DNA from: Streptomyces sp. NBC_01465
Lineage (GTDB): Bacteria; Actinomycetota; Actinomycetes; Streptomycetales; Streptomycetaceae
DNA length: 64,000 nt
Direction of reading: 5' to 3'
NCBI RefSeq assembly: GCF_036227325.1
Contig: NZ_CP109467.1
Coordinates: 3,720,001 to 3,784,000 of the forward strand
A program made the translations under genes and the position numbers. The notes beneath the pieces are model-generated. The model had not been told where the DNA came from. It did not search any database and saw only the letters and a list, made by a program, of their open reading frames with translations. Each line of letters starts with the position of its first letter. Within the stretch, counting starts at the first letter, position 1. Below, one piece after another: positions 2,665 to 36,410 of this stretch.

Positions 2665-3087
2665 ATGCCCACCCTGCCCTGGACCACCCCCAGCTCTCCC
2701 GAAGGCCACGAGACGGCGCTGATCATGGCGTCGCGCTTCGAGGTCCGGAGCCCCAAGGACGTACCCCGGTTCTTCCTCAACTCGCTCGCGGCCTGGCGCC
2801 AGGTCCGCAAGGCTCCGGGCTGCTTCGGCGCCTCGCTCGTCGCCCGGCCCGTCAAGCGGACGTTCCAGACGCTGTCCGCCTGGGAAAGCCGCGAGCAGCT
2901 CATGACGTACGTCCGGACGGAGCCGCACCGCTCGATCATGAAGTCGATGCGCCCCACGATGAGAGATTCGACGTTCGTGTACTGGGACGCCTCCGCCGCC
3001 GATCTCCCGATCAGCTGGGCCGAGGCCGGAAGACGACTCGACGAACAGTCGGCCGGACATGAAAAAGCCCCAGGTCACGGCGAGTGA
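2665..3087 (+). CDS. DUF3291/antibiotic-biosynthesis-monooxygenase-like protein
   Basis: The 140-residue product has a ferredoxin-like alpha-beta pattern: IMASRFEVRSPKDVPRFF, then FGASLVARPVKRTFQTLSAWESREQLMTYV and HRSIMKSMRP. This resembles DUF3291 and ABM-type small oxygenases or binding proteins. It follows the MarR gene closely. The last dozen codons, from AGHEKAP to the stop, lie inside the first tRNA-derived att repeat, so the C-terminus is encoded by what is elsewhere the tRNA-Thr terminator. That tail may be ancestral, because the terminator would be convergent in the empty chromosome, or a product of element insertion. The exact enzyme function is not assignable. Confidence 0.7.
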   Translation: MPTLPWTTPSSPEGHETALIMASRFEVRSPKDVPRFFLNSLAAWRQVRKAPGCFGASLVARPVKRTFQTLSAWESREQLMTYVRTEPHRSIMKSMRPTMRDSTFVYWDASAADLPISWAEAGRRLDEQSAGHEKAPGHGE

Positions 3088-3146
3088 GTCCTGGGGTGAT
3101 TCCGAGCCGCCTTCGGGATTCGAACCCGAGACCTACGCATTACGAG
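3055..3146 (+). repeat. att repeat copy 1 (tRNA-Thr 3' end plus terminator)
   Basis: This roughly 92-bp segment matches 7631-7721, 9698-9788 and 36288-36378 almost base for base. It contains the tRNA-Thr terminator hairpin and the last 41 nt of the tRNA, up to and including the anticodon loop. It differs from the others by a single base in the A-run/C-run junction (AAAAAGCCCC). It marks the left outer edge of the island, and its right flank (CACGGTAGCG) is unlike those of copies 2 and 3. Confidence 0.85.
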
Positions 3147-3991
3147 CACGGTAGCGATCATGCCGACGCGTGTTGAACGATCGCATTAGATCCCGTCTTC
3201 GCAGATCAGGGCACCTGCCACCGTCCTGCTGTGCAGGCCCCGTGCCGCACCGTCCAAAGGCGTCCGCGCTCCCCCTGCGCTCCCCTGAGTGCGCTTCGCG
3301 GCTACGGCACGCCAGGCATCCACCTCCATCTCGGTCACAAGTGCCTCTTGTTCGCTCCCGACAAGGCGGGGAGCGCGGTTTCAACGCGGCAAGCCGTATC
3401 GGGTGCTTGGTGCTTCCCGGTCTGGGGGTGTTTACGAAAAGGCGCACGAGCGCCGCACCAGACACTCCCGACGGTCATCCCTCTGGGGGAAGGCACCCGG
3501 CCGGAGGTCGGTTTCGGCGTGGTCGCGTGATGCCCGGTCCGATGCCAGGTGACGCCGTAACGGCCTTCGCCGTGGCCCTCTTGCGCGGCTGCCTCGTCAC
3601 CCGCGGCCCGGCCATCGGCGCGATCCCGACCAACTCCGGGCTGGTGGTTTTCGGACCGCTCTTCGATGCTGATGCCCCTCCACCGTCAACCCGTCAGTCG
3701 GGAGTTCATACCGCTTGGGGAATCTTCGTTTGGTCTGCGGGTTCGGTTCAGGGGCTGCTGGCCTGATCGCGACTGCTTCAGGGATGGTGCGAGGTTGCCG
3801 GTGGCCGCCCGAGCGGCTCGGTGAATCCCTTGAGCGAGCCGGGGGGCGCCACCCTCCGCCCCTCAGGTCGAGGCCGGCGATGCCGGAACGCTCCCTCGCA
3901 GTGGCGGAAAAACGATCCAGCTCGGACAACGCTCACTACGTTCCGCGTCTGATTCACTACGCCTCGTATTCGGTGAGATGAGTGGAGACGC
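3147..3991. other. 845-bp stretch without a supported gene
   Basis: I see open frames but none with a coherent protein pattern, good codon bias and a ribosome site. A short tract around 3410-3500 has weak inverted repeats. No FMN-riboswitch core could be aligned upstream of the RibB-like gene. The stretch may hold decayed element DNA and the promoter of the downstream operon. Confidence 0.5.
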
Positions 3992-4627
3992 ATGATGCTC
4001 GATGCTGTGGAAGTTGCGGTCGCGGAGTTCGCGGCGGGCCGCCCGGTCGTGGTGGTCGATGACGAGGACCGCGAGAACGAGGGCGATCTGATCGTCGCGG
4101 CATCGGAGATGACCGCCGAGATCATGGCGTTCATCATCCGCCACACCGGCGGTGTGGTGTGCGTGGCGATGGAGGGCGCGGACCTGGACCGGCTGGAGCT
4201 GCCACCGATGTGCAGCGACAACCAGGACCCCAAGGGGACGGCGTTCACGGTGTCCACCGATGCGCTGGGGTGTTCCACGGGAATCTCGGCTGCCGATCGG
4301 GCGCTGACGGTCCGCACACTGGGCGATCCGTCCGCGCTGCCCGGGCAGTTCATGCGGCCGGGGCACGTGTACCCGCTGCGCGCCGCCGAGGGCGGCCTGT
4401 TGTCCCGGCGCGGTCACACCGAGGCCGGGGTGGAGCTGGCCCGGCTGGCCGGGCTGGCGCCGGCAGCGGCCATCTCGGAGGTCATCAACGACGACGGCAC
4501 GATGACTCGGCTGCCGCAGTTGCGGCTGTTCGCCGACGAGCACGATCTCAAGCTGATCTCGATCGAGCAGCTCGTCGCCTTCCAGGAGCGTGCCCTGACC
4601 GACTCGGCCCCCGTAGGCAGGGGTTGA
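3992..4627 (+). CDS. ribB: RibB-like 3,4-dihydroxy-2-butanone 4-phosphate synthase
   Basis: The family converts ribulose 5-phosphate to L-3,4-dihydroxy-2-butanone 4-phosphate and formate. At 211 residues this is a stand-alone RibB, not the RibBA fusion used in the main riboflavin operon of actinobacteria. Signature motifs are intact: DEDRENEGD at 24-32, TGISAADR near 96-103, RPGHVYPLRA around 122-131, and RRGHTEAG at 139-146. These supply the metal and phosphate ligands. A HAD phosphatase gene starts on the base after its stop, followed by an SDR and an alditol oxidase, so it probably feeds a dedicated pathway. It sits between two att repeats, which suggests acquisition with a mobile element. 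Confidence 0.9.
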   Translation: MMLDAVEVAVAEFAAGRPVVVVDDEDRENEGDLIVAASEMTAEIMAFIIRHTGGVVCVAMEGADLDRLELPPMCSDNQDPKGTAFTVSTDALGCSTGISAADRALTVRTLGDPSALPGQFMRPGHVYPLRAAEGGLLSRRGHTEAGVELARLAGLAPAAAISEVINDDGTMTRLPQLRLFADEHDLKLISIEQLVAFQERALTDSAPVGRG

Positions 4628-5386
4628 GTGTCCCCGGTGGAAGGCGTACGACCCACCGCACCCGGCCCGAACGTCGCAACAGCGATGACCGGGCTGTCCG
4701 GTGAGGTCCTCCCCGGCATCGGGGGTGTGGTGTTCGACCTGGATGACACCCTGCTGGCCAGTGGGCCGGTGTGGGTGGAGTGCTGGCGCGAGCACTGTGA
4801 GCGGGCCGGACGCCCGTGGAGTCCTGAAGTCGCCTCCCGGTGTGTGGGGTCGGGGCAGTGGAGTGAGCACCTGGCCGACTGGTGCGGCGGCGATGCGGCC
4901 CAGTTGGAGGCGTCGTGCACCGACTACATGGTCGTCGCGCTCGCGGAAGGCCGTGTCGAGCCGCTCGACGGAGCGTTGGAACTGATCGCCACAGCGGCGG
5001 ACCGAGTGCCCGTCGCACTGGCCTCGGCGGCACCGCGCCGGTTCGTGGACGCGGCCGTAGCCGCCTTCGAGTTGGGCCGATTCCTGCAGGCCATCGCGTA
5101 CGCCGACGAGGTCACCCACGGCAAACCCGCACCCGACATCTACCTCCGTGCGGCCCGGCGCCTGCAGCTGCCTCCCGGCCGGTGCGTGGCGGTGGAGGAC
5201 TCCGGCAGCGGAATCCTCGCGGCATACCGTGCCGGCCTGCAGGTTCTGGCCGTCCCCAACAGGGCGCACCCGCCGGCACCAGAGGCACTGCAGTTGGCGG
5301 CTCACCGTGCCGACACCGGCTCGGTGGCCGTGAAGATCCTCATTGATCTCCTTGACCGGACCGCGGAACCAGGCGGGCTCACGTGA
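4628..5386 (+). CDS. HAD-superfamily sugar-phosphate phosphatase (beta-PGM-like subfamily)
   Basis: The GTG start follows the ribB stop with no gap and gives 252 residues. Motif I is VVFDLDDTLLASG (D37 nucleophile, D39 acid/base). Motif II is the Ser in VALASAAPRRFV, motif III the Lys in HGKPAPDIYLRAA, and motif IV the acidic pair in VAVEDSGSGILAA. This is the full set for a phosphatase or phosphoglucomutase with a helical cap at about 50-110. Because it is coupled to ribB, dephosphorylation of the four-carbon product is a reasonable inference, but the substrate has not been shown. ATG at 4685 is an alternative start. Confidence 0.85.
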   Translation: MSPVEGVRPTAPGPNVATAMTGLSGEVLPGIGGVVFDLDDTLLASGPVWVECWREHCERAGRPWSPEVASRCVGSGQWSEHLADWCGGDAAQLEASCTDYMVVALAEGRVEPLDGALELIATAADRVPVALASAAPRRFVDAAVAAFELGRFLQAIAYADEVTHGKPAPDIYLRAARRLQLPPGRCVAVEDSGSGILAAYRAGLQVLAVPNRAHPPAPEALQLAAHRADTGSVAVKILIDLLDRTAEPGGLT

Positions 5387-6138
5387 TCAACCAGCTCTTC
5401 GACGTCAACGGCCGTACGGCCCTGATCACCGGCGCCACGCGCGGCATCGGGCTCACGTTCGCCCGCGCCCTGGCCGAGGCCGGCTGCCGGGTCGTACTCA
5501 ACGGACGCGACCGGGCCCGGCTCGAGGAGGTCGCCTCGGACCTGCCGGGCCAGGTGCACACCAGCCCCTTCGACGTCAGCGACCCGGCAGCGGTCGAGCG
5601 GGCGATCGCCGGGGTCGAGGAGCAGGTCGGGGAACTGGACATCCTGGTGAACAACGCCGGCATCCACCCCCGGGGCCCGCTCACCGAACTCACCGACGCC
5701 CACTGGTTGCAGACGCTGGACACGAACGTCACCGGCGCGTTCCTGACGGGCCGCGCCGCCGCCCGCCGCATGGTCCCGCGTGGCCGCGGAAAGATCATCA
5801 ACGTCTGCTCCATCCGCTCCGACCTCGCCGCCCCCGGCACGGCCGCGTACACCACCAGCAAGGGCGCGCTGAAGATGCTCACCAAGAGCATGTGCGCCGA
5901 TCTGGCCCCGTACGGCATCCAGGTCAACGGCATCGGCCCCGGCCGGATCGTCACCGACATGACCCGCGCCCAGTTCGACGACAAGGACCACCACGCCCAG
6001 GTGTGCGCCCGTACCCCGGCCGGCCGTTGGGGGCAGCCCGAGGACCTGGTCGGCGCCCTCATCTACCTTGCCTCGCCCGCTTCCGCGTACGTCAACGGGC
6101 ACATCCTGTGCGTCGACGGCGGACTGACCAGCGTCTGA
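5383..6138 (+). CDS. Short-chain dehydrogenase/reductase (gluconate 5-dehydrogenase-like)
   Basis: The 251-residue classical SDR starts at GTG 5383 and overlaps the upstream stop by 4 bp (GTGA), implying translational coupling. The Rossmann motif TGATRGIG is at 16-23 and NNAG at 90-93. The catalytic set is N115, S143, Y156 and K160, and it ends with NGHILCVDGGLTSV, typical of polyol or ketose dehydrogenases. An arginine after the second strand (NGRDRARL) suggests NADP(H). It probably oxidises or reduces a hydroxyl/keto group on the product of the two preceding enzymes. Confidence 0.88.
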   Translation: MINQLFDVNGRTALITGATRGIGLTFARALAEAGCRVVLNGRDRARLEEVASDLPGQVHTSPFDVSDPAAVERAIAGVEEQVGELDILVNNAGIHPRGPLTELTDAHWLQTLDTNVTGAFLTGRAAARRMVPRGRGKIINVCSIRSDLAAPGTAAYTTSKGALKMLTKSMCADLAPYGIQVNGIGPGRIVTDMTRAQFDDKDHHAQVCARTPAGRWGQPEDLVGALIYLASPASAYVNGHILCVDGGLTSV

Positions 6139-6240
6139 TCCCGGGCCGGCGCTTCCCTTCGAACCCACAAGCACCGTCCGGCCTGACCAGGCCCGGCACT
6201 CCACCACCGCGCAACGGCGCGCGAGACGAGGTACCGCACA

Positions 6241-7511
6241 TGACCGAGAAGCTGACCAACTGGGCCGGAAACGTGGCCTTCCGCGCACAGGAGATCAACC
6301 GGCCCATCTCCCTCAGGGAACTGCAGCACACGGTGGCACGCAGCTCCAAGGTGCGCGCCCTGGGCAGCCGGCACTCCTTCAGCGACATCGCGGACACCGG
6401 CCGGACCTTGGTGTGCTTGGACGACCTGCCGCCCCTGTTCGAGATCGACTCCGCGGCCGCCACCGTCCGTATCACCGCGAGCATGCGCTACGCGGAGCTG
6501 GGGCGACGCCTGCACGAACAGGGCTGGGCCCTGCACAACCTCGCCTCACTGCCCCACATCTCCGTCGCCGGAGCCTGCGCCACGGGCACCCACGGCTCGG
6601 GTGACGCCAACGGGAACCTGGCGACCGCCGTCACGGCGCTGCAGATGGTCACCGCAGACGGCGAGGTGGCCGAGCTCGACCGCGACCAGGACGAGGACCG
6701 CTTCCACGGCACCGTCGTGGCACTGGGCGCCCTGGGGATCGTGACCCAGGTGACCCTCGACCTCGTGCCCACCTTCGAGGTGGAGCAGTACGTCTACCAG
6801 GACCTGCCCTTCGAGGCGCTGACCGAGCACTTCGCCGAGATCTTCGCCAGCGCCTACAGCGTGAGCCTCTTCACCGACTGGAGCGGCCCCCGCATCAACC
6901 AGATGTGGCTCAAGCGCAAGCAGGACGACACCGGTTCGCCCCTCCCGGGGACCCATTGGCTCGGCGCACGCCTGTCGGACATCCCGCTCAACCCGCTGCC
7001 CGGCATGTCCCCGGTCCACGCCACCCAGCAACTCGGCGAGGCCGGTCCCTGGCACGAGCGACTGCCGCACTTCCGCTCCGACTTCACCCCTGGCTACGGC
7101 AACGAACTGCAGTCCGAGAACTTCGTACCCCGCCGGCACGCCGTCGCCGCCCTGCGCGCCCTGGACGACATCCGCGCCCACATCGCGCCCCTCGTGCAGA
7201 TCTCCGAGGTCCGCACCATCGCCGCGGACGAGCTGTGGATGAGCCCCGCTCACCAACAGGACATCGTGGCCTTCCACTTCACGTGGACCAACGACACCAC
7301 AGCGGTCCTGCCCGTCCTGGCCATGATCGAGGAACGCCTGGCCCCGTATGCGTCCAGGCCACACTGGGGAAAGCTCTTCACCACCTCGTCCGCCACCCTG
7401 CAGTCGCGCTATCCGCGTTTGCCGGACTTCCGGAAGCTGGCCCGCCACTGGGACCCGACCGGGAAGTTCACCAACGACTTCCTCGACCGCACCGTCTTCG
7501 CGGACCTCTGA
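6241..7511 (+). CDS. aldO: FAD-dependent alditol oxidase (AldO-like)
   Basis: The 423-residue protein aligns by eye end to end with Streptomyces coelicolor AldO, which oxidises the terminal CH2OH of alditols to an aldehyde, releasing H2O2. LGSRHSFSDI contains His45, equivalent to the histidine that carries FAD covalently, and ASLPHISVAGACATGTHGSG is the family FAD-binding segment. Residues reported for the AldO active site are retained as E-x-R in SEVRTIAAD, Thr in HFTWTNDT and Lys in PHWGKLF. ATG 6241 lies 102 bp after the SDR stop. No signal peptide is seen, so it is cytoplasmic. It completes a ribB-HAD-SDR-aldO series. Confidence 0.9.
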
Positions 7512-7630: not shown

Positions 7631-7721
7631 GGACATGAAAAACCCCAGGTCACGGCGAGTGAGTCCTGGGGTGATTCCGAGCCGCCTTCGGGATTCGAAC
7701 CCGAGACCTACGCATTACGAG
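7631..7721 (+). repeat. att repeat copy 2 (tRNA-Thr 3' end plus terminator)
   Basis: A 91-bp copy in the same orientation as the other three. The right flank GGCCTGCAAGATC resembles that of copy 3, so the segments starting at 7.7 and 9.8 kb have related left ends. It separates the ribB-aldO segment from the Uma2 segment. Confidence 0.88.
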
Positions 7722-7830: not shown

Positions 7831-7850
7831 GCTCACGCAGGGCTCACGCA
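7831..7850 (+). repeat. Paired GCTCACGCA repeats, candidate integrase arm sites (segment 2)
   Basis: GCTCACGCA occurs at 7831-7839 and 7842-7850, an 11-bp period. The same pair with the same spacing lies at 9906-9925 and 36225-36244, always close to an att repeat. This is what arm-type binding sites of a tyrosine integrase would look like. Confidence 0.6.
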
Positions 7851-7879
7851 AATTGGCATGCCGCTCGCCGGCGTGGGAC

Positions 7880-8446
7880 TCAGATGCGACCGAGGTCGAC
7901 TTTGACCGGGAAGGGCGCCGAGACCTTGACGACACCGGTGAACACGTCCCCGTCCCGGTAGGCCCTGGTAGCCGGATCGAGCACGTAGGTGTACACCAGC
8001 GGGACCCCGGTCGCAGCCTGCTCGACCCGCCAGTAGAAGGCGATGCCGGCCTTCGCGTACTGGTCCGCCTTCACGATCCGGTCGGTGGTCTCCGACCCTG
8101 GCGAGACAACCTCCACGACCAGCAGCACATGCTCCGGCCGGGTGGGCGAGACATCGATCGTGTCCGCGCGATACACGACAACATCCGGACGCCGATTGGT
8201 GAGCGGAACATCCTGCAGACGGACGTCGAAGTCGGTATCGGCGTTCCACTCCGGCTCCGCGGCAGCCTCCAAGGCATTCGCCAGAATCCGGGCGAGCCGG
8301 TTGTGGCGCTTGGACGCACTGGGGCTCACGACGACCATCCCGTCCACGATCTCGATCCCCGCACACTGCTCCTCGGACCAAGAGTCGTACTGCTCCGCAG
8401 TGATCTGCTCGTGCATCCACGCAGGAGCCACCGTCTCGGCAGTCAT
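7880..8446 (-). CDS. Uma2-family putative endonuclease
   Basis: ATG at 8444-8446 is preceded by AGGAGG and gives 188 residues. The protein has the Uma2 (DUF820) arrangement: an EIVDGMVVVSPSASKRHNRL segment, then RRPDVVVYRAD, LLVVEVVSPGSETTDRIVKADQYAKAGIAFYW and a C-terminal strand region. The D and E-x-V residues match the PD-(D/E)xK nuclease core of the family. Uma2 genes are abundant as solitary genes in streptomycetes and cyanobacteria, and their role is unclear. It is the best preserved gene of the short second segment. Confidence 0.85.
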   Translation of the reverse strand: MTAETVAPAWMHEQITAEQYDSWSEEQCAGIEIVDGMVVVSPSASKRHNRLARILANALEAAAEPEWNADTDFDVRLQDVPLTNRRPDVVVYRADTIDVSPTRPEHVLLVVEVVSPGSETTDRIVKADQYAKAGIAFYWRVEQAATGVPLVYTYVLDPATRAYRDGDVFTGVVKVSAPFPVKVDLGRI

Positions 8447-8629
8447 GACGCACCTCCTGGACACCATGCAAGCGGGCCCGATCCCGCTGCGTTCAGCGTA
8501 CTGCCCCAGCCCCTGACCGTGCTCGGAAGATGTGCCCAGCGCGAGAGGCGTTGAAGGTGTTGCCCTGGGCGAGGAGCGCGCGACACTGGGCCGAGGCGTG
8601 AGGCCCGCTCCCATCTTCCAAAGGGGCTG

Positions 8630-9256
8630 ATGAGGATCATGTTCAAGCGTGCCCCGGAGAGAACTGCGCAGAAGGCTGCTGCACACGAGGAAAAGCAGCA
8701 GGCTCGTACGGAAGCCGCCGAACAGCGGCAGGCGGACAAGGAAGCACTGAAGGACTGGCGCAAGTTGCACCCTGCCGAGAAGACGATGAACACCGCTGCA
8801 ATGATGCGCCTTTGGCCGTCCTCCAAGTTCGGCGTGACTGGGCAAGGACCAGTACTCGGCGGCCAGGCCGAGTTCGTCAACGCTGGCGCTCACAAAGCGT
8901 GGACGGCAACCAGGCTCGCTGGCGGAGTTGCAACGGGCGGTATCTCAGCCTTGGCGGGACGCAAGAACAAAGGCGCGGCTGTCATCAATGTGACCTTCGG
9001 CAACGGAGCTGCACAGACGTACAACGTAAAACCAGACTCCACGACCCTGCGAGCGGCCAACCAGTACGTGAATGCATTCAACGTGCTCGCTTCGCAGTTG
9101 GCCGGCGAAATGGGCTCTGCTTCATCGCCCGAAGCAGTTCAACCCAAGCCCCAGTCAGTGGCCGACGAACTCGGCAAGCTCAAGGCCCTCGTCGATCAAG
9201 GCGCTCTGACGCAGGACGAGTTCGATCAACAGAAGGCGCGGCTGCTCGGGACGTAG
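8630..9256 (+). CDS. SHOCT-domain protein of unknown function
   Basis: The 208-residue product has three parts. The N-terminus (about 1-45) is highly charged and rich in Ala, Lys, Glu and Gln, predicted helical. The middle is a beta-rich GAAVINVTFGNGAAQTYNV region. The C-terminus, ADELGKLKALVDQGALTQDEF, is a clear SHOCT domain (short C-terminal oligomerisation module). ATG 8630 or ATG 8639 could be the start; AAGGGG at 8621 and TGAGG at 8631 favour different choices. Such proteins are common but uncharacterised. Base composition is less GC-rich than the core genes. Confidence 0.7.
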   Translation: MRIMFKRAPERTAQKAAAHEEKQQARTEAAEQRQADKEALKDWRKLHPAEKTMNTAAMMRLWPSSKFGVTGQGPVLGGQAEFVNAGAHKAWTATRLAGGVATGGISALAGRKNKGAAVINVTFGNGAAQTYNVKPDSTTLRAANQYVNAFNVLASQLAGEMGSASSPEAVQPKPQSVADELGKLKALVDQGALTQDEFDQQKARLLGT

Positions 9257-9697
9257 GCTGTCTTCAAAACTCCTGCCTGCCTCGCACCCCCATCGGGCGG
9301 ATGCCGAGAGCCTGGCGACGCCCCGCTGTCCGCGTGACGCTCGGATGCCGCGAACAACCGCGGGACCTCCTTGAGTCCGATGGCCGGCAGCAGGTCATCC
9401 ACGTCATCGACCGACCAGCCGCGCCGCTCGGCCTTGAACTCCTTCAGCCGCAGGGTATCGACCTCGCGCATGCCCTTCTCGGCCATCAACAAGACGGTCA
9501 GCAGGAACCAGCACGGGTTGCTGGAGACGACGTAGTCAGGCTCGGGCAGGGCCCCACGAATGCACCACAACTGGGAGGTTTGCCGCTCGCCCCCGCCTTC
9601 GTCACCTACGCGCCTCCCGCCCACTCCTTCACAGTCAGGCTGTGCTGGACCCTGCACTTCCACGACATCCCGGTCGTGCGGCTCGGCACGCGCCCCG
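9257..9697. other. Region with a degenerate minus-strand coding remnant
   Basis: No intact gene is supported. On the minus strand an open stretch at about 9310-9585 reads like genuine protein (LLTVLLMAEKGMREVDTLRL, then GWSVDDVDDLLPAIGLKEVPRLF) but lacks a convincing start and runs into att sequence. I do not recognise the family. It is probably the decayed right end of segment 2. The last 40 bp (9659-9698) closely resemble 36249-36288. Confidence 0.4.
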
Positions 9698-9788
9698 GGC
9701 ATGAAAAAACCCCAGGTCACGGCGAGTGAGTCCTGGGGTGATTCCGAGCCGCCTTCGGGATTCGAACCCGAGACCTACGCATTACGAG
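9698..9788 (+). repeat. att repeat copy 3, left end of the intact element
   Basis: A 91-bp copy identical to 36288-36378 by eye. The similarity to copy 4 continues about 40 bp further left, so copies 3 and 4 share element-end sequence. Recombination between them would excise the 26.6-kb segment with the integrase. Confidence 0.88.
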
Positions 9789-9905: not shown

Positions 9906-9925
9906 GCTCACGCATCGCTCACGCA
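9906..9925 (+). repeat. Paired GCTCACGCA repeats, candidate left-arm integrase sites
   Basis: Two GCTCACGCA copies, at 9906-9914 and 9917-9925, lie about 118 bp inside the left att of the intact element. They match the pair at 36225-36244 inside the right end, which gives the two arms of a joined attP. Confidence 0.6.
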
Positions 9926-18229: not shown

Positions 18230-18278
18230 GAAGTGTTCCCTCACTGTGTTCGTCTCCTTGCCGTGCAGGCCATATGAG

Positions 18279-18293
18279 CCCCGCACGGCGGGG
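18279..18293. other. GC hairpin in the leader of the RHS gene
   Basis: CCCCGC - ACG - GCGGGG lies 50 bp upstream of the toxin start. It could be an attenuating leader hairpin or chance in GC-rich DNA. An AT-richer tract with AAAGT-TCTG-ACTTT (18308-18321) is adjacent. Confidence 0.25.
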
Positions 18294-18343
18294 AGCCCCC
18301 ATCAAAGAAAGTTCTGACTTTGCTTCATGTCCGACCACGTCTG

Positions 18344-18380: not shown

Positions 18381-18388
18381 GCTTCAGG

Positions 18389-25453: not shown

Positions 25454-25731
25454 TGGCCGTCGTCCGTCTCGTCCTGCTCTGCGTCGTGGCCGGTGTCGGG
25501 GTCGACTTTCCCGTCCTTGCTCACCTGCGTCGGTGGGTAGGTGTTGACCGACGTGCCGTGCTTGCCGAACTCCACCGGGAGCATCTGCCCGTCGCTTCCG
25601 ATCCATCGGCCGGTCTGCGTCTGTGGGTCAAGTCCCCCGTACTGCCAGGGTGTTGCCTCGCCATTGCTGAGCGGGGCCATGCGCTGCATACCCCAAGGGG
25701 TTGCCGTCTGATGGGCGGGCTGCTGGTGCAT
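25450..25731 (-). CDS. tgmA: Graspetide precursor peptide (TgmA-like)
   Basis: ATG 25729-25731 has GGAGG four bases upstream, and the peptide is 93 residues. The N-terminal half shows the ATP-grasp-target leader pattern: TPWGMQRM at 11-18, then YGGLDPQTQTGRW at 31-43 and FGKHGTS near 55-61. The C-terminal part from about residue 60 is rich in Thr/Ser/Lys donors and Asp/Glu acceptors (TQVSKDGKVDPDTGHD, then EQDETDD), as expected for side-chain macrocyclisation. An Asp-Gly pair at 73-74 is a possible aspartimide site for the PIMT-like enzyme. No protease or dedicated exporter is visible nearby. A longer upstream frame exists but lacks any ribosome site. Confidence 0.85.
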   Translation of the reverse strand: MHQQPAHQTATPWGMQRMAPLSNGEATPWQYGGLDPQTQTGRWIGSDGQMLPVEFGKHGTSVNTYPPTQVSKDGKVDPDTGHDAEQDETDDGQ

Positions 25732-26662: not shown

Positions 26663-26685
26663 ATTAACACTGGCGGGAGTTGGTA

Positions 26686-29808: not shown

Positions 29809-30542
29809 GCGGCGGCCTCTCCCTCGTCCGGCACGGCGGGCTCGCGCAGGGCCTCGGCGATCAGTTCCAGCAGTTGCTGGAGTTCGGTCAGGTGCTGGCG
29901 GATGTCGGGTGGGGTGAGGTCGCTGTTGAGGGCGCGGGCGATCTGGTTGACGTTCACGCCGATGCGGTTGAGCTGGCGCAGCACTTGGGCGCGGAACATG
30001 TGGGTGCGGCGGCGGTCCTCCGACAGGGGCAGGTTGGCGGTGAACCGGCCGTCGATGAAAGCGAGAGTGATGTCGGCAGCAAGGCCGGAGTCGCCTTTGT
30101 AGCCGTGCTCGGCGGCGGCCTCCAGGAGGCGGGCGTGCTCGTCAGTGGTGAAGCGCAGGGGGCCGACGCGAGCGGTGCGCTTGGTGCCGGTGTAGCGGCG
30201 AATCGTGGGCTGGGCGCTCTTCACGGTCGGCTCGCCGGCCACGGCAACGTCTTCACGTGTGGGGCGGAGGATCTCGTGCTGGACGGTGTGGAGCATGTCC
30301 GGGTCGGGGCCGCTCCCGGCCCCGACCTCCTGGTCCGGCGCCCCCTGGCGCTGGGCCGTCTCCGCCACCCCTGGGGCGGAGACCCCCGAAGACCGGCCAT
30401 GAGTCGGACTCGGGGTACTACTGGCTCCGCCAGGAGCAGCCCGTCCCAACGCCCGCCGCAAACGTTCCGTCAGTGTCAGGGACTTCGTGAACTGCAACGA
30501 CTCTTCGGAGGCGTCTCGAGGGTGGTGCAGGTCGTGCGGCAT
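29805..30542 (-). CDS. mobC: MobC-like relaxosome accessory protein
   Basis: The 245-residue product has a disordered, Pro/Ser-rich N-terminal half. From about residue 125 follows a MobC core: VGPLRFTTDEHARLLEAAAE, then RAQVLRQLNRIGVNVNQIAR and LTELQQLLELI. The LNRIGVNVNQIAR segment is a hallmark of MobC proteins, which bind near oriT and help the relaxase open the strands. It is translationally coupled to the relaxase. The 170 bp upstream contains two inverted-repeat structures that could be oriT. Confidence 0.85.
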   Translation of the reverse strand: MPHDLHHPRDASEESLQFTKSLTLTERLRRALGRAAPGGASSTPSPTHGRSSGVSAPGVAETAQRQGAPDQEVGAGSGPDPDMLHTVQHEILRPTREDVAVAGEPTVKSAQPTIRRYTGTKRTARVGPLRFTTDEHARLLEAAAEHGYKGDSGLAADITLAFIDGRFTANLPLSEDRRRTHMFRAQVLRQLNRIGVNVNQIARALNSDLTPPDIRQHLTELQQLLELIAEALREPAVPDEGEAAA

Positions 30543-30660: not shown

Positions 30661-30715
30661 TGACCGGAGCCGGGTGGTCGGAAGAGGTTCCGGCCACCCG
30701 GTCGGGTTCCGGTCA
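30661..30715. repeat. Nested inverted repeats, candidate oriT or terminator
   Basis: The outer arms TGACCGGA and TCCGGTCA (30661-30668, 30708-30715) enclose a cruciform-like hairpin. That hairpin has stems CCGGGTGG/CCACCCGG and CGGAA/TTCCG around a GAGG loop (30670-30701). It overlaps the stop codon of the DUF2637 gene. It may terminate that gene or serve as oriT; no U-tract is present. Confidence 0.45.
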
Positions 30716-31576
30716 GGCGTTGGCCGGATGGGTCTCGGTGGCGTTTTCGAATTCGGGCCGGAGGATGTTCATCACCTCGGTCAGCCGCTTGCTGCCGATC
30801 GTGAGTCCTTTGGCCTCAACTGCCTTGCGGACGACGGCGCGAGTGAGTTTGCCCTGGTCGGCTACCGCGACTCGGCCGGTCTCGACGAGTACCTCCAGCG
30901 GGGCGCCGGGCGGACGGCCTCCCCGCGGCCTGCGCTGCGCAACTTCCGTTGACGGTTCCGGGCACTGGGCGGATACCGCGGCGGGCAGCCCGCTGGGCTG
31001 GACTCGCTCAACCTGCTGGGTGGGCGCGGTGACCGGTGGTTTCGGTACCTGGACCGAAGCAGGCTCCGCGCTGCTGACGGAGCGGTCGACCAGCCGGTGG
31101 ATCTGGCCCATGAGCACGCTGAAGGCCAGCAGGGCTGCGGTCGGCGGCACCGCAGCCACCACGTAGTCGAGCAGCGGTATGTCGCGGCCATGACCGGTCC
31201 CATTGACCCCGGCCACGTTCAGCGCGATGGAGCCGAGCGATCCGGTCGCGGTCAGCGCGACGGCCGACAAGTCGCCCTCCCCGCGGAGGCCCGTGTGGAG
31301 CATGAGGAGTTCGCCCGCGACGATGAACGCGTCCAACGTTGCGGGCCAGGCCCACTGGCGTATCGGGGAGCCGCCCAGTCCGTGCTGGCCGGCCACCTCG
31401 GCAAGGTGCGCGTAGGACAGCCAGAACGCTCCGGCCGTCAGGGCAACGATCACGATGCCCGCCGTGATGAGCACGAACTGTTCGGCAGCATGCTTGGTCA
31501 CCTGCGGCCTTCGTGTGCCGGGCCGCTTGCGTGGAAACTTGCGGCGCATCTGGTGGCGAAGAGAAGAGAGTTTCAA
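30713..31576 (-). CDS. DUF2637 family membrane protein (Spd-like element protein)
   Basis: I choose TTG 31574-31576, with GGAG 8 bp upstream; ATG 31549 is an alternative. The 287-residue protein has a basic N-terminus, then membrane segments in AAEQFVLITAGIVIVALTAG, in the AWPATLDAFIVAGELLML region, and in LSAVALTATGSLGSIAL and YVVAAVPPTAALLAFSVL. A cytosolic tail ends with a small wHTH-like part (LTRAVVRKAVEAKGLTIGSK). DUF2637 proteins are encoded almost exclusively on actinomycete plasmids and integrative elements, where spread (Spd) functions are proposed. Confidence 0.8.
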   Translation of the reverse strand: MKLSSLRHQMRRKFPRKRPGTRRPQVTKHAAEQFVLITAGIVIVALTAGAFWLSYAHLAEVAGQHGLGGSPIRQWAWPATLDAFIVAGELLMLHTGLRGEGDLSAVALTATGSLGSIALNVAGVNGTGHGRDIPLLDYVVAAVPPTAALLAFSVLMGQIHRLVDRSVSSAEPASVQVPKPPVTAPTQQVERVQPSGLPAAVSAQCPEPSTEVAQRRPRGGRPPGAPLEVLVETGRVAVADQGKLTRAVVRKAVEAKGLTIGSKRLTEVMNILRPEFENATETHPANA

Positions 31577-31995
31577 GCGGACTACTCCTGGGGGTGCTGT
31601 GGGGCGTCTTGGCCGTCTCAGCCGTTGCAAGCGCAGGTCAGCGCGGGTACGGCAACCGCCATGGCGCTTCGTCCCGGCGAACGCCGCCACCGTCTTGTCC
31701 CTTCTCGGGACACGAAGCGGCGGGTCCTGGGCGGGCCCGGCCTCACGCGGGCCGTGTTCCGGGTCGGAACAGGGGCGGGTGCGCCTTCCGTCCCAGCGGT
31801 TAGGGCTGTGACCTGCGGCGATACGGCAGGGACGGCTGGGACGCGTCGAGACGGAACCGGGCGCCGTCTTGGCGGGAGGACGCGGTTGATGATCGTGTTG
31901 CCGTCTTGGGCCCGGCTGCCGTCTTGCGCGCACCCTGTCTGACCTGCGAGATCACGGCAGGGACGGCAAGGACGGCAACCGGGAGGAGTGCGGGC
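31577..31995. other. Repeat-rich non-coding region, candidate replication origin
   Basis: No gene is supported. One TGTCCC-N5-GGGACA palindrome lies at 31696-31712. Two related copies of TGACCTGCG followed by ACGGCAGGGACGGC lie at about 31809-31839 and 31940-31969. GCCGTCTTG recurs near 31863, 31903 and 31919. Together with the iterons in the adjacent gene end this looks like an origin. Confidence 0.45.
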
Positions 31996-33369
31996 TCAGC
32001 TCTCGCTGAGGCCAGCAGGTCTGCTGTCCCGAATCGGGACACGCGCGTTGTCCCCAGTCGGGACGGGCCGGTTGTCCCTGGTCGGGACAGTCGGGGTGTT
32101 CACTGGGTGAACGGTGGGGCAGTAGCGGCGCCAGGGGTCGAGGAACTTGTTGCGCATGTAGCCCTTGCGCTGCGTTCCGTCGGCGATGCGGACGTTGCCG
32201 GACTTGATGCCGTACTCGCGCAGCAACCCGCTGAGATCACGCGCGTCCAGTCCCCTGCGGCCCCACTCCACCCACGGGCTCTCGGCGTCCTGGCGCAGGA
32301 GGAAAAGGAGCTCCTCGGTGGTCAGGCTCTCCGGCTCGCCCCGGCCCGCGTAGATCCGGCGGATGTCGGCGAGGATCCGTGCCCCGCTGGGGTGGTCCTC
32401 CTCGGCCGCCACCTCGGCGGCGACCATCCGCGCGCACGCGATCCGCGCCAGCCGGGGCCACGCGCCGCCCGCGAGGTCGGCGACGATCACCAGGGGCTCC
32501 CAGGTGTCGGCGGCCCGGTCTTCGACCGGCAGGTCCGGCTCCAGGCTCGCCGCCTGCTCCAGCAGCGGCCCGGCCCACGCGGCGATGCGGTCGCGCAGCT
32601 CGTGCAGGCCCGGGATGTCCCGGCGGGAACGGAAGGGCTTGACCTTCTCGCCCTCGGCACGGCGCCGCATACGGATCACGACCGCCCGGTCCATGATCGT
32701 ATCGGGCAGGTCGCCGATCCCCGCGATCGCCGCCATCGCGAAGGTCGCGAACCGGTGCGGGGTGTGGTCGTTGCCCACCACCCTCGTCACGTAACGGCCC
32801 CGCTGGTGACCGGCGTTGAGCAGGCCGCGCGTCTCCTCGTTCTTCTCCGCGACCTTCGGGCCGAAGATCGTGTCCGCCTCGTCCACCAGCAGCGTCGGCG
32901 GATCATCCTCGGTGATGGACCGGAAGATCGCCGCCGGTGTGGTGTTGATGGTCAGCATCGGCTCGTGCACGATCTCGACCAGCACATCCAGCAGCCGCGA
33001 CTTGCCGCACCGCTTGGCCGGACCGACCACCGCCAGACGCGGCGCGTGCTGCCACGCACGCTGCAGATGCGTCGCCGCCGCCCACAGCGTCACCGCATCC
33101 AGCGCCTCCGGCGAGGGCAGAATCACGAACTTCGCTATCTCCGCACGCAGTTCATCCAGCAGGCCGGAGCCAGGTGTCGCCGCCGCATCGGGCATCGCTT
33201 CCAGCCCGCCCGGCGCAGCTTCCTCCCCGGGACCGGCGGCAGGCTCGGTACGGTCGGCGCCCTCAGTATTCGGACCGGCCAGGTGCGCGCCGGGCTGGCC
33301 GGGGATGGCCGTGGTCGGCCAGAGAGCCTGGGCAGGTGCGGAATGAGGCTCGGGTGTGGCAGGTTGCAT
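31996..33369 (-). CDS. DUF3631 AAA-type ATPase, probable replication protein of the element
   Basis: ATG 33367-33369 with GGAG upstream gives 457 residues. A Walker A motif (VVGPAKRCGKSRLLDVLV) and Walker B (LLVDEADTIF) form a helicase-like ATPase, followed by the DUF3631 domain, with FATFAMAAIAGIGDLPDTIMDR as sensor region. The C-terminal tail is an 8-residue repeat (RDNRPVPT, GDNARVPI, RDSRPAG), because 24-bp iterons lie in the coding sequence. DUF3631 proteins occur on actinobacterial phages, plasmids and integrative elements, often with replication genes. Here it is the only replication candidate, so it may act as initiator or loader at the adjacent repeats. Confidence 0.8.
   Translation of the reverse strand: MQPATPEPHSAPAQALWPTTAIPGQPGAHLAGPNTEGADRTEPAAGPGEEAAPGGLEAMPDAAATPGSGLLDELRAEIAKFVILPSPEALDAVTLWAAATHLQRAWQHAPRLAVVGPAKRCGKSRLLDVLVEIVHEPMLTINTTPAAIFRSITEDDPPTLLVDEADTIFGPKVAEKNEETRGLLNAGHQRGRYVTRVVGNDHTPHRFATFAMAAIAGIGDLPDTIMDRAVVIRMRRRAEGEKVKPFRSRRDIPGLHELRDRIAAWAGPLLEQAASLEPDLPVEDRAADTWEPLVIVADLAGGAWPRLARIACARMVAAEVAAEEDHPSGARILADIRRIYAGRGEPESLTTEELLFLLRQDAESPWVEWGRRGLDARDLSGLLREYGIKSGNVRIADGTQRKGYMRNKFLDPWRRYCPTVHPVNTPTVPTRDNRPVPTGDNARVPIRDSRPAGLSES
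32025..32113. repeat. Four 24-bp-spaced palindromic iterons inside the DUF3631 gene
   Basis: TGTCCC-N5-GGGACA (17 bp) begins at 32025, 32049 (last base G) and 32073. A diverged TGTTCA-N5-TGAACG begins at 32097 in the same 24-bp register. A fifth unit lies outside the gene at 31696. The strict spacing is characteristic of plasmid replication iterons or cooperative operators. Confidence 0.7.
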
Positions 33370-33605
33370 GGAGCAGCTCCTCTTCCGGCGGCTTTGGGCA
33401 CGCAGGCCCGAGCCGCGCAGGGCGTTCGTGGGATTACGGGCGATGAGGCGTTCGGAGCCTCCGACGTTGGCGCGTCGGGGGCTCACCCCTTTCTCGCGGG
33501 CACTCGGGCACCGCGAGGGACCACGGACAGTACGGTCACACCCGCCCGCAGTCCAGCGTTTCTGTGTCAGCTCAGCGCAGAAGCGCCTGCTATGCGCACG
33601 CCCGC

Positions 33606-33836
33606 TCATGCGGCAAGGCCCAACAGGGCCAACAGGTCGGCGGTCACCACCCGGTAGGCGTTCCCCAGCCGCAGCACCTTGCACGGGTACAGACCGCGCT
33701 TCGCGAGCTCGTACCCCTTGCTCCGCCCCAGACCCAGCGCCCGATTGCCGGTCTCCAGGTCAACGGCCACCGGCAGCGCCAGCAGCTCCTCCCGCGTCAT
33801 GCCCTTTGCCTGCTCGGCGAGTTCGTTCTCCTGCAT
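33606..33836 (-). CDS. xis: Excisionase-like small DNA-binding protein
   Basis: ATG 33834-33836 with GGAG 6 bp upstream gives 76 residues; a longer frame reaches TTG 33893. LPVAVDLETGNRALGLGRSK followed by GYELAKRGLYPCKVLRLGNA is a MerR-like winged helix of the AlpA/HTH_17 type, used by Xis proteins to bend att DNA. It diverges from the Xre-integrase pair across about 95 bp. An excisionase role is inferred from fold and position. Confidence 0.8.
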   Translation of the reverse strand: MQENELAEQAKGMTREELLALPVAVDLETGNRALGLGRSKGYELAKRGLYPCKVLRLGNAYRVVTADLLALLGLAA

Positions 33837-33921: not shown

Positions 33922-33938
33922 TGTGTCTTCATGACACA
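33922..33938. promoter_or_regulatory. Inverted repeat over the Xre gene start codon
   Basis: TGTGTC-TTCAT-GACACA is perfect in both 6-bp arms, and the start codon lies partly in its spacer. A second short repeat, TTAG-GAAAG-CTAA, precedes it at 33910-33922. TAATGT at 33919-33924 could be a -10 box for a leaderless transcript. Binding here by the Xre protein would block its own and the integrase expression. Confidence 0.45.
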
Positions 33939-34617
33939 ACACGATTCCGATGCTGAGTACGAGGACGATGACGACGTCCCCGAGTGGACCGACCACGTCA
34001 TGGCCACCGTGGCCGCAGAGGTCCGACGCCGAAGGAAGGAGCTGCGCATGAGCGCCCAGGACCTCGCCGAGCGATGTGAAGAGCTCGGCCACCCCATCCC
34101 GCGCAACGTCATCGCCAACATGGAATCCGGCCGCCGCTCCAACCTGCCCCTGGTCGACGTCATGGTCCTGGCCAAAGCCCTGCGCACCAACCCGATCTGC
34201 CTCATCTACCCGATCGGGTACATCCCCGAAGTCCAGCGACTCCCCTACGAGGACCGCATCGCCCCCTGGAACGCCATGACCTGGTTCATCGCCCAGGACA
34301 ACGGCTCCCTGGCCGACCGCGACATGCTCCGCTACCAGCAAGAACACATCCAGGCCATCGCCGCGGCGCGCTCCGCGATCGCCAGCGAGAGCTACGCGCA
34401 GTACGCGGTCAACCGGGCAACCGATGCCACCCAACGAGCGAAGGCCCTACGCGAACAGGCCACCAGCCTGGAGCAGATCGAAAACGCCAAGCAACGCCTG
34501 CGCGTAGCCCGCTCCTTCATCCGCCGAGACCGCGGCCTCCTCCCCTACCTGCCACCCGAACTCACCGACATCGACCCACCCGAAACCGACGACGACACCG
34601 AGGAGTTTGACCTTTGA
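33931..34617 (+). CDS. Xre-family regulator upstream of the integrase
   Basis: The 228-residue product has an acidic N-terminus (EYEDDDDVPEW). A helix-turn-helix follows: VRRRRKELRMSAQDLAERCE and HPIPRNVIANMESGRRSNL at about 33-75. The rest is helical up to an acidic C-terminus. The integrase start overlaps its stop (TTGA), so the two are coupled. Such Xre-int pairs let the element tie integration and excision to the repressor state. A palindrome over its start codon suggests autoregulation. Confidence 0.85.
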   Translation: MTQHDSDAEYEDDDDVPEWTDHVMATVAAEVRRRRKELRMSAQDLAERCEELGHPIPRNVIANMESGRRSNLPLVDVMVLAKALRTNPICLIYPIGYIPEVQRLPYEDRIAPWNAMTWFIAQDNGSLADRDMLRYQQEHIQAIAAARSAIASESYAQYAVNRATDATQRAKALREQATSLEQIENAKQRLRVARSFIRRDRGLLPYLPPELTDIDPPETDDDTEEFDL

Positions 34618-36209
34618 AGGGCTCTGCCTACCGCCGCTGTTCCTGCCGTGACCCGAAGTCCGGCAAGGAGCTCGGCACTTCCTGCCCCAAGCGCAACAGC
34701 AGGAACCACTGCACCTACTCCATACGCCAGGAGCTGCCGCCGCGCGAAGACGGCAGCCGCAGGTCCTTCGCCCGTGGCGGCTACGACAGCCGCAAGGCCG
34801 CCCAGGCCGACCTCGACCATGTCCGCGCTCTCCTCGGCCTGGCCAAGTCGGATGATCCCGAGGGCATCGAGCTCCTTGCCGCGATGCTGGCGGAGGTCAG
34901 CAGCGAGAAGGTTCCCCTGCCACAGGTCGAGGAGACGAGGCGGCGTCTCAACGCCGGCCAGGACCTCATCGGCAGCCTGACGGTGAGCGAGTGGCTCGAC
35001 CAGTGGCTGGCGGGCAAGCGCATACGGAAGTCCGGCCTGAACCGCTACGAGACCGACATCCGCATGCACCTCAAGCCGCGCATAGGGAGCCGGCGCCTCG
35101 ACCGGCTGCGCGTCAGCCACCTCAGCGAGATGTTCACCGACATCCGCGACGCCAACGCCCAGATCCTGGAGCAGAACGCCCAACGGCGAACTGCGATCGA
35201 CGAGTTGGCGGCAGTGCCGTGGAAGGGGACGGACAATCGCGCCCGCCGCAAGGCGATGAAGGCCGCTATCGATGCGATGCCGCCCTTCCGGCGCATCACT
35301 GGCCCCTCCACCCGCCAGCACATCAAGGCAACGCTGCGCGCCGCACTGAACGATGCGATCGGTCAGCAGATCATCACCTTCAACCCGGCCGCCCACGTCG
35401 AGATCGACTCCGTACGCAAGCCGAAGGCTCTTGTCTGGACGGACGAGCGCGTCGCCAAGTGGCAGCAGACCGGCGAGAAGCCGTCTCCCGTCATGGTCTG
35501 GACGCCCGAACAGACCGGCGCCTTCCTCGACTTCGTCGCCACCGACCGGCTGTACGCCATGTGGCACCTGATCGCCTTCCGCGGCCTGCGACGCGGCGAG
35601 GCATGCGGCCAGCCCTGGTCGGAGACCAACCTCGACATCCACTCCCTCACCGTCTCCTCCCAACTCGTCCAGGACGGATGGGAGGTCGAGACGTCCGAGC
35701 CCAAGACCGACAGCGGCTTCCGCGTCGTAGCGCTCGACGACGACACCGTCGAGGTCCTGGAGCGCCACCGCAAGCAGCAGGACGCGGACCGCGAGGAGTG
35801 GGCGACGGCCTGGGTGGACACCGGCCTGGTCTTCACTCAGGCCGATGGCTCCTGGCTCCACCCCGGCAAGGTGACCGACCTCTTCGAGCGCCTCGTCGCC
35901 GCCTCTGGTCTTCCGCCGATCCGGCTTCACGACCTCCGGCACGGTGCGGCCACGCTCATGCTCGCCGCCGGCATCGACGTCAAGATCGTCTCCGACACCC
36001 TCGGGCACAGCGACACCCGCATCACGCGGGACATCTACCAGAGCGTCCTGCCCCACGTCGGCAAGAGCGCGGCCGAGGCCACCGCCAAGCTGGTCCCCCT
36101 CCAGCGCAGGACCGAGGCCGAGCAGGCGGCCCGCAAGGCCGCGAAGGCCGCCAAGAAGGCGAAGGCCATGAGCAAGAAGAAGGGCAAGGCGAAGAGGCCC
36201 AAGAAGTAG
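34614..36209 (+). CDS. int: Tyrosine site-specific integrase of the tRNA-Thr element
   Basis: TTG 34614 has GAGGAG 8 bp upstream and overlaps the Xre stop, giving 531 residues. The N-terminus carries a Cys-rich arm-binding part (RRCSCRDPKSGKELGTSC) and a core-binding domain at about 125-290. The catalytic domain shows Arg in AFRGLRRGEACG, HDLRHGAAT, LGHSDTRITRDIY and the nucleophile Tyr near residue 475. The tail is Lys/Ala-rich. It lies 78 bp from the att copy joined to the intact tRNA-Thr, the normal position for an integrase that targets that tRNA. Confidence 0.93.
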   Translation: MKGSAYRRCSCRDPKSGKELGTSCPKRNSRNHCTYSIRQELPPREDGSRRSFARGGYDSRKAAQADLDHVRALLGLAKSDDPEGIELLAAMLAEVSSEKVPLPQVEETRRRLNAGQDLIGSLTVSEWLDQWLAGKRIRKSGLNRYETDIRMHLKPRIGSRRLDRLRVSHLSEMFTDIRDANAQILEQNAQRRTAIDELAAVPWKGTDNRARRKAMKAAIDAMPPFRRITGPSTRQHIKATLRAALNDAIGQQIITFNPAAHVEIDSVRKPKALVWTDERVAKWQQTGEKPSPVMVWTPEQTGAFLDFVATDRLYAMWHLIAFRGLRRGEACGQPWSETNLDIHSLTVSSQLVQDGWEVETSEPKTDSGFRVVALDDDTVEVLERHRKQQDADREEWATAWVDTGLVFTQADGSWLHPGKVTDLFERLVAASGLPPIRLHDLRHGAATLMLAAGIDVKIVSDTLGHSDTRITRDIYQSVLPHVGKSAAEATAKLVPLQRRTEAEQAARKAAKAAKKAKAMSKKKGKAKRPKK

Positions 36210-36224
36210 ATCGCCGAGCCCTCC

Positions 36225-36244
36225 GCTCACGCATCGCTCACGCA
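36225..36244 (+). repeat. Paired GCTCACGCA repeats, candidate right-arm integrase sites
   Basis: Copies at 36225-36233 and 36236-36244 (11-bp period) lie just after the integrase stop and about 44 bp from the att repeat. They match the left-arm pair at 9906-9925. Confidence 0.6.
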
Positions 36245-36287
36245 AGCCCTTCCACGGCATCCCCGTCGTGCGGCTCGGCGCGCCCCG

Positions 36288-36378
36288 GGCATGAAAAAAC
36301 CCCAGGTCACGGCGAGTGAGTCCTGGGGTGATTCCGAGCCGCCTTCGGGATTCGAACCCGAGACCTACGCATTACGAG
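36288..36378 (+). repeat. att repeat copy 4, fused to the intact tRNA-Thr
   Basis: This copy includes the tRNA terminator and the tRNA 3' 41 nt, and here alone the sequence continues into a complete tRNA. It is the right end of the 26.6-kb element and the reconstituted attachment site. Confidence 0.88.
36300..36328 (-). terminator. tRNA-Thr rho-independent terminator
   Basis: On the minus strand, CCCCAGG and CCTGGGG form a 7-bp stem followed by six T residues, 9 nt after the tRNA 3' end. The same hairpin is carried by all four att copies. Confidence 0.85.
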
Positions 36379-36410
36379 TGCGTTGCTCTGGCCAACTGAG
36401 CTAAGGCGGC
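36338..36410 (-). tRNA. tRNA-Thr (anticodon CGT)
   Basis: The 73-nt cloverleaf has acceptor stem GCCGCCT/AGGCGGC, D arm GCTC...GAGC, anticodon stem ACGCA/TGCGT with loop CTCGTAA, and T arm TCGGG-TTCGAAT-CCCGA. The anticodon CGT reads ACG threonine codons. CCA is not encoded. It is the target of the adjacent integrase; its 3' part is duplicated at the other three att copies. Confidence 0.95.

Follow-up and report, generated by a model that had tools for sequence, protein, structure and literature searches.

Four cores at a tRNA-Thr(CGT) gene

The stretch of DNA considered here is a 64-kb window of the genome of Streptomyces sp. NBC_01465 (contig NZ_CP109467.1, positions 3,720,001 to 3,784,000, forward strand). 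It harbors four direct copies of an 84-nt core, c1 to c4, all in the same direction (Table 1), with starts spaced by 4575, 2067 and 26590 nt. Each core spans the sequence from the anticodon loop of tRNA-Thr(CGT) through the 3' end of the tRNA to a terminator-like hairpin, the latter read from the sequence. c2, c3 and c4 are identical over the 84 nt, and c1 has one mismatch. The 5' half of the tRNA adjoins c4 alone, and ARAGORN detects a single tRNA in the window. The cores delimit unit 1 (c1 to c2, 4.6 kb), unit 2 (c2 to c3, 2.1 kb) and unit 3 (c3 to c4, 26.6 kb), which very probably constitute a tandem array built by stepwise insertion at this tRNA gene. Tandem accretion of elements at one tRNA is a known way of genome growth, described for cis-mobilizable elements (CIMEs) and integrative mobilizable elements (IMEs).

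When the whole genome (9.14 Mb, a single contig) was searched with a 133-nt query from the tRNA end, eight matches were obtained, namely the four cores and, at much lower scores, one tRNA-Thr(TGT) gene and three tRNA-Lys genes. No further core was found in 124 kb of this genome, the next best site having 42 mismatches out of 84, which is the chance level, nor did any degenerate extra core rise above chance in the 60 kb to the left of c1. That the repeats might be ordinary dispersed sequence, or duplications without relation to recombination, is a possibility of negligible weight and was rejected: there are only four copies in 9.1 Mb, they share one direction and adjoin the tRNA, and the arm pairs described below stand at nearly constant distances from them. 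The earlier note on this DNA had reported four same-direction copies of the tRNA-Thr 3' end and terminator, a complete tRNA at the fourth copy only, and an integrase in the last unit only. Base-by-base comparison of the copies and the tRNA scan agree with the first two points, and the third holds genome-wide as far as Pfam shows.

From c3 to c4, unit 3 comprises a DUF6193 frame, an RHS/PT-HINT protein, a LamG protein, a graspetide-type pair and an NsdA-family regulator, followed by a relaxase with MobC, DUF2637 and DUF3631 proteins, a helix-turn-helix (HTH) regulator and a tyrosine integrase. The integrase frame has no internal stop, and its translation displays what we take to be the R, HxxR, GH and Y motifs. 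It accounts for the one PF00589 match in the genome, and the single PF00239 match lies 200 kb away from the array. As in IMEs, an integrase of the element's own stands beside the attachment (att) site, and relaxase and mobilization genes are present. No conjugation-pore gene occurs among the Pfam-scanned frames, no dedicated search having been made, and unit 3 is therefore best called a mobilizable element. Neither traB nor a replicase, the two genes expected of an actinomycete integrative and conjugative element (AICE), is named among its scanned frames. With both of its arms belonging to one class, unit 3 looks like a complete IME. As a separate observation, each of four relatives searched has 13 to 21 PF00589 matches, as opposed to one here.

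Genes were called from codon GC bias, not from a gene finder. Unit 1 carries four plus-strand genes in a row, for a ribB-type synthase, a haloacid dehalogenase (HAD)-type hydrolase, a short-chain dehydrogenase/reductase (SDR) and an FAD-linked oxidase; the last of these genes ends 126 nt short of c2, and the integrase-side end of the unit is missing. Unit 2 encodes an Uma2-family protein and an overlapping SHOCT-domain frame. Neither unit has a trace of an integrase in any frame of at least 50 aa, and the frames covered by the Pfam scan include no relaxase or other transfer gene.

Table 1. Features of the array, in window coordinates.
Feature	Position	Strand	Basis
c1, outermost core, 1 mismatch	3063..3146	+	sequence comparison
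Box GTCCAAAGGCGTC in P' arm of unit 1, 13/13	3252..3264	+	
Unit 1 P' arm pair, class C, CGCTCCCC twice, period 11	3267..3285	+	
Unit 1, 3,4-dihydroxy-2-butanone-4-phosphate synthase (ribB type)	3992..4627	+	Pfam, NCBIfam
Unit 1, HAD-type hydrolase	4628..5386	+	Pfam, NCBIfam
Unit 1, SDR dehydrogenase	5383..6138	+	Pfam, NCBIfam
Unit 1, FAD-linked sugar-lactone-type oxidase; start approximate (from translation)	6240..7511	+	Pfam, NCBIfam
c2, identical to c4	7638..7721	+	sequence comparison
Unit 2 P' arm pair, class A, GCTCACGCA twice, period 11	7831..7850	+	
Unit 2, Uma2-family protein	7880..8893	-	Pfam
Unit 2, SHOCT-domain frame, overlaps Uma2 frame	8630..9256	+	domain scan
Left of c3, stub of the flank of a class A P arm, 88% to 36246-36286; pair itself missing	9654..9694	+	
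c3, identical to c4	9705..9788	+	sequence comparison
Unit 3 P' arm pair, class A	9906..9925	+	
Unit 3 cargo, RHS-repeat/PT-HINT protein with Tox-REase-2 end	11297..18286	-	Pfam
Unit 3 cargo, Laminin_G_3-domain protein	18389..22738	-	Pfam
Unit 3 cargo, ATP-grasp peptide (graspetide-type) methyltransferase + maturase pair	23374..25606	-	TIGR04188, TIGR04187
Unit 3, NsdA-family regulator	26680..28026	+	NCBIfam
Unit 3, MobA/VirD2-type relaxase (PF03432) + MobC (PF05713)	28075..30542	-	Pfam
Unit 3, DUF2637 protein; matches PHROG labelled excisionase	30713..31933	-	Pfam, PHROG
Unit 3, DUF3631 protein	31996..33684	-	Pfam
Unit 3, HTH regulator	33931..34617	+	domain scan
Unit 3, tyrosine integrase, 531 aa, no internal stop	34614..36209	+	PF00589
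Unit 3 P arm pair, class A	36225..36244	+	
c4, joined to rest of tRNA	36295..36378	+	ARAGORN + sequence comparison
tRNA-Thr, anticodon CGT, intact; target gene	36336..36410	-	ARAGORN

Arm pairs and probable stepwise insertion

Most cores are accompanied by an arm, i.e., a tandem pair of 10-mers with a period of 10-12; the arm to the right of a unit's left core is called P', and that on the integrase side P. A class A pair, whose members are CGCTCACGCA or differ from it by one base and stand 11 bp from each other, is found right of c2 (+108/+119 from the core), right of c3 (+116/+127) and left of c4 (-71/-60), for a background rate of 0.075 per 400 nt. Class A pairs occupy nearly the same places in units of other genomes (G067, G123, G046, G244, G183, G003 and G042; G and L numbers are our labels for genomes and loci). 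To the right of c1 stands a class C pair, with CGCTCCCC at 3267 and 3278. The arms suggest that units 2 and 3 belong to one class and unit 1 to another. The Uma2 gene of unit 2 lies 159 nt from the core, and units of G046, G209 and G057 have a relative of it at the corresponding position, next to a class A P' arm and 151 to 195 nt from the core; the proteins are 90-92% identical over 208-209 aa. Both arms are present in unit 3, and units 1 and 2 are devoid of the integrase-side arm.

Lambda-type integrases bind arm-type sites, and by analogy with them the pairs fit arm-type integrase sites. Other integrase clades at tRNA-Thr(CGT) have other arm pairs. For 20 of the 25 integrases found beside cores (the other five had a weak pair or too short a protein), arm-pair similarity follows integrase identity, with Spearman coefficients of 0.70 to 0.71 for each of three protein parts (Mantel p 0.001). 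The three parts correlate alike, and the N-terminal and catalytic parts are not separable as the driver of arm class.

These features are consistent with a mechanism in which each element would be inserted by a tyrosine recombinase, the crossover falling in the part of the core that belongs to the anticodon loop. Each insertion would restore the 3' end of the tRNA and its terminator and leave the left core behind, so that, judging from the anatomy of the array and the established model, the newest unit would be the one adjoining the tRNA; unit 1 would then be the oldest and unit 3 the newest. Unit 2 may represent the left end of a class A unit whose integrase-side end is gone, and unit 1 a unit of another arm class (class C, with GTCCAAAGGCGTC as its box) that has likewise lost its integrase-side end. 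The integrase of unit 3 is predicted to excise unit 3 (c3 x c4) and, because c2 keeps a class A P' arm, units 2 and 3 together (c2 x c4). Since the core holds both the tRNA end and the terminator, exchange between c4 and any other core would still leave the tRNA whole and provided with a terminator. Unit 1 is unlikely to leave by itself, given arms of the other class on one side, none on the other, and no second PF00589 integrase in the genome.

Similar arrays occur in many relatives. A 38-nt core pattern, allowing up to one mismatch, was counted in 246 genomes of the genus: 34 have none, which may mean a core with more mismatches, 141 have one, 47 two, 11 three, and 13 four or more. At least two cores are thus present in 71 genomes, that of the window included, with a maximum of seven, spread over several contigs. 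Rows of three to six same-strand cores on one contig were found in several genomes, e.g., four in G022 and six each in G228 and G079. For a survey of the units themselves, genomes were picked for at least two cores on one contig, and proportions are therefore not prevalence estimates. It covers 62 units between neighbouring cores, among the matches listed, each of at most 36 kb, in 41 genomes, and related genomes are not independent. A full integrase is present at the right end of 17 units, five contain a fragment only (G108, G123, G164, G057d_u1 and G183_u1), and 40 have none, i.e., no match at E 1e-3 to a 21-seed profile, with which a PF00589 run on five genomes agrees there. Full integrases were found in 16 of the 33 tRNA-proximal units vs. 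one of the 29 others (Fisher 5e-5), and that single distal unit (G034_u1) ends at a contig end, where 'distal' is uncertain. The median length is 17.3 kb for units with a full integrase and 9.5 kb for those without any.

A P' pair of at least 8/10 is found in 59 of the 62 units, vs. 9.8% of random windows. P' and P arms that match each other (at least 9/10) were identified in 12 of the 17 full-integrase units, vs. 3.9 expected, and in 20 of 37 integrase-less units, vs. 5.3 expected from mispairing (permutation p 0.0002; three of the 40 were left out, their P' pair being too weak). Many integrase-less units thus look like whole elements with both ends. In two units (G057d_u1 and G108_u1) the P' arm is of one class and the P arm of another, and these units look chimeric.

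Comparisons with relatives that have a single core point in the same direction. In G143, G004, G029 and G072, over 20 kb each, there is no DNA of units 1 to 3. Had the genes of unit 1 been kept in place in strains without att copies, the accretion proposed in the earlier note would be in doubt; this was not seen when 3.8 kb of unit 1 DNA was used as a query against 392 genomes, with up to two candidates per genome scored among the matches listed. Besides the unit itself, the matches listed are of at most ~1.3 kb, at 67-74%, to single genes. Altogether, the near-identical cores, the single-core relatives and the arrays of many relatives support accretion at one tRNA.

As for the borders, the tRNA end was matched in 148 of 150 genomes of the genus, that of the window included. 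At 28 of 29 loci (L013-L041, the exception being L028), the tRNA match is followed within ~230 nt by a match to the gene at window position 38,110. The right border is therefore backbone, and the gene at 36,509-37,975 is extra here; it encodes a PBP-family protein and lies between the tRNA and that backbone gene. On the left side, the backbone ends at about window coordinate -35,700 in G143, G004 and G015, a core following after 1.4 to 4.1 kb, and at about -37,860 in G029 and G072, a core following after 4.9 and 5.7 kb. There is one core in each of these genomes except G015, which has two. In this genome, 38.8 kb without any core separate the relatives' backbone end from c1. The 33-kb island of the earlier note thus stands as an array but not in its extent, the non-syntenic stretch being larger than 33 kb. 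DNA at window positions 1400-3055 has matches in 79 of the 150 genomes (the window's own included); it was discarded as a candidate ancestral flank, the nearest match lying 90 kb from tRNA-Thr, on one contig, in 23 rows compared by eye. So the array is foreign, its original outer junction hidden in this lineage.

Four points weigh against stepwise accretion. Fourteen of the 33 tRNA-proximal units have no integrase, and its presence in the newest unit is therefore a tendency only. Units 1 and 2 of the window are among the 17 of 37 integrase-less units that fall below the matching threshold for arms, with best P matches of 7/10 and 8/10. The left flank of c1 differs from the backbone of the relatives, so the original empty site of the strain is not visible. 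Lastly, the three units might have arrived at once, as a composite circle (c1 x c4). The cores are nearly identical and any pair can in principle recombine, and transfer of a CIME in tandem with an integrative and conjugative element (ICE) is reported in the accessible text of an IME review (PMC5704250); however, the arms at c1 and c4 are of different classes, and the same three units occur in none of the arrays read, which makes arrival in one piece improbable.

Several known systems come close to this array. The accessible part of the same review describes accretion, CIMEs and a three-step model for their formation (PMC5704250). The present array resembles CIME/IME accretion at a gene end in its tandem units with common att cores, one of them with an integrase, and in its newest unit, as proposed, beside the target gene. 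It differs in that units 1 and 2 have each lost one arm and that arm classes differ between units. In Streptomyces, a report that was accessible in part describes an ICE and an AICE family that both use tRNA-Thr, the ICE with direct repeats of 93 nt, as well as accretion of AICEs at tRNA-Arg, where a remnant has no traB (PMC9513070). The target and the nearly equal length of the repeats are alike, although the anticodon is not stated in that part and identity of the gene is not established; in contrast, unit 3 is of the relaxase type, with no TraB or replicase in the scanned frames. The ssrA islands of Dehalococcoides, 15 of which have no integration module according to the text available, are likewise multiple tandem islands bounded by an RNA-gene repeat, but with a serine recombinase and a 20-bp repeat rather than a tyrosine integrase and an 84-nt core (PMC3146451). 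PAISt of Streptomyces turgidiscabies, as far as its accessible description goes, offers an example of modular island excision, which is predicted here, but its target is bacA, with an 8-bp site (PMC4057263).

Cores are also found in other settings. In G104, G189, G064, G010 and G244, cores on one contig, tandem ones among them, are separated by more than 1 Mb, and some are therefore away from the tRNA. In G141 (L045, oriented coordinates 13737-17687), a core of only 77.5% identity adjoins a class A integrase, at a distance of 4 kb from the genuine core of the tRNA. On a 918-kb linear plasmid of Streptomyces atratus, 78 nt match the tRNA-core region at 95% (L187, NZ_CP108277.1:516431-516508), with no integrase among the features listed nearby.

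Origin of the integrase-less units

The earlier note had considered units 1 and 2 to be remnants of elements kept on the far side of the array. The absence of their integrase-side arms agrees with this, but they need not ever have carried an integrase, integrase-less units being the commonest kind in the arrays examined. Two origins may be considered. Units 1 and 2 may be CIMEs, that is, former integrative elements whose integration and transfer genes were deleted and whose cores were kept. Both are flanked by cores and lack an integrase and, among the Pfam-scanned frames, transfer genes, and the three-step model, in the text of the review that was available, accounts for such elements (PMC5704250). 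Decay is also seen at this tRNA, in integrase frames with stops beside cores in G064 and G010 and in the five fragment-only units mentioned above. Conversely, the frames of units 1 and 2 that reach 50 aa hold no integrase trace, the Pfam-scanned ones hold no relaxase, and while cores and P' arms are kept, the P arms are missing, so attL and attR are not whole on both sides. On balance a CIME origin is a serious possibility, toward which we lean slightly less than away.

Alternatively, units 1 and 2 may have entered as integrase-less cassettes, moved in trans by an integrase of the matching class, and lost one end later, an origin compatible with stepwise accretion of the array. Among the 40 surveyed units without a tyrosine integrase, 14 are tRNA-proximal, and no match to the serine recombinase family PF00239 was found inside the arrays of 16 genomes tested. 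Class A units without an integrase, in which a relative of the Uma2 protein accompanies Wadjet genes, exist in G046 and G209.

Unit 1 in addition carries a recurrent motif. This box, GTCCAAAGGCGTC, is found (12 or 13 of 13) at +104 to +106 in 29 of the 62 units, the others scoring at most 9. In 21 units, e.g., at L103, L092 and L096, CTACGCATTACGATGCGTAG or a variant thereof lies 20 to 75 nt left of the core at the P end. This motif is nearly palindromic and looks like the anticodon crossover, except that its centre is shorter (usually 6 bp vs. 7); in units that have such a copy the arm pair is as a rule further out. Box and copy occur together in 20 units, the box alone in nine and the copy alone in one. 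None of these 30 units has a full integrase (28 have none and two have fragments), vs. 17 of the 32 others; for the 29 with the box, the split is 27 and two, which holds only within the 62-unit set. A common unrecognised recombinase was looked for in the units with the palindromic copy and was not found: as judged by BLASTP of translated ends, these units share no gene, each end being present in at most nine of the 21, and only the ends recur. Over the 40 nt that start with its box, unit 1 agrees with units of G218, G025 and G104 at 35-36 positions (random maximum 26). No description of arm classes or of a core copy at this tRNA was found in the titles and opening lines of abstracts searched, which is weak evidence of novelty, subscription papers being mostly outside the search.

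Outside the 62 units, in contrast, three larger elements combine the box in the P' arm with a tRNA-side integrase and have no copy. Their cores are 77 kb apart in G057, 54 kb in G225, where the integrase frame is cut by the stretch examined, and 175 kb in G014, whose arm class is that of unit 1. Autonomous relatives therefore exist, and unit 1 could derive from one of them by deletion. Moreover, units 1 and 2 have lost their integrase-side ends, and what they formerly were is no longer readable. An origin as cassettes moved in trans is thus conceivable, with doubt prevailing.

Cargo and a possible docking array

Several integrase-less units carry genes of defence systems. PADLOC identified JetA, JetC and JetD of a Wadjet system in G046, with an unscanned frame between JetC and JetA; the G209 unit has Pfam counterparts of JetC and JetD together with a relative of the G046 JetA; and JetD-type domains with a short JetC-type piece occur in G218. 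No Jet remnants were seen in unit 2. The G022 unit encodes a Gabija GajB helicase and an AbiEii protein, the frame at the GajA position being unscanned. For ten more large proteins encoded in units without an integrase, PADLOC reported no complete known system and returned weak or partial matches to mad3/mad8, PDC-S39 and 2OG. By BLASTP, proteins related to RHS and LamG of unit 3 occur in integrase-less units of G141, G182, G183 and G228, and metabolic genes are present in that of G141.

It is tempting to think that, in this genus, tRNA-Thr(CGT) serves as a docking array for cassettes that form a discrete class, have no integrase and carry interchangeable, class-addressing arm pairs, an idea that we hold tentatively and with somewhat more reserve than conviction. 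The cassettes would share their core with integrative elements, and their arm pairs would direct them to integrases of the matching class. In 21 of the 62 units surveyed, one end also has a palindromic copy of the crossover site. The cassettes would have no gene in common. They would ferry defence, toxin or metabolic cargo in reliance on several helper integrases, and unit 1 would be a one-ended cassette. One core with exchangeable arm pairs would provide a natural series in which each unit can be assigned to the integrase that moves it. Such a series bears on whether islands without an integrase are mobile in cis, mobile in trans or immobile, a question that is hard to settle for CIMEs from sequence alone. 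With Wadjet genes, a Gabija helicase and RHS proteins as cargo in relatives, the answer bears on the spread of defence and conflict genes among these bacteria.

Further observations concern the cargo of the window itself. A named pathway for the genes of unit 1 found no support: the HAD protein has relatives (32-51% identity) at 24 loci, of which, at E 1e-8, one also has an SDR relative and none a ribB or oxidase relative. A unit without an integrase and with a class A P' arm, G040d_u2, encodes relatives of the HAD, oxidase and SDR proteins of unit 1 at 26-32% identity. The RHS and LamG relatives recur together in the units of G141, G182, G183 and G228, and in unit 3 their counterparts lie together at the far end (11297-22738).

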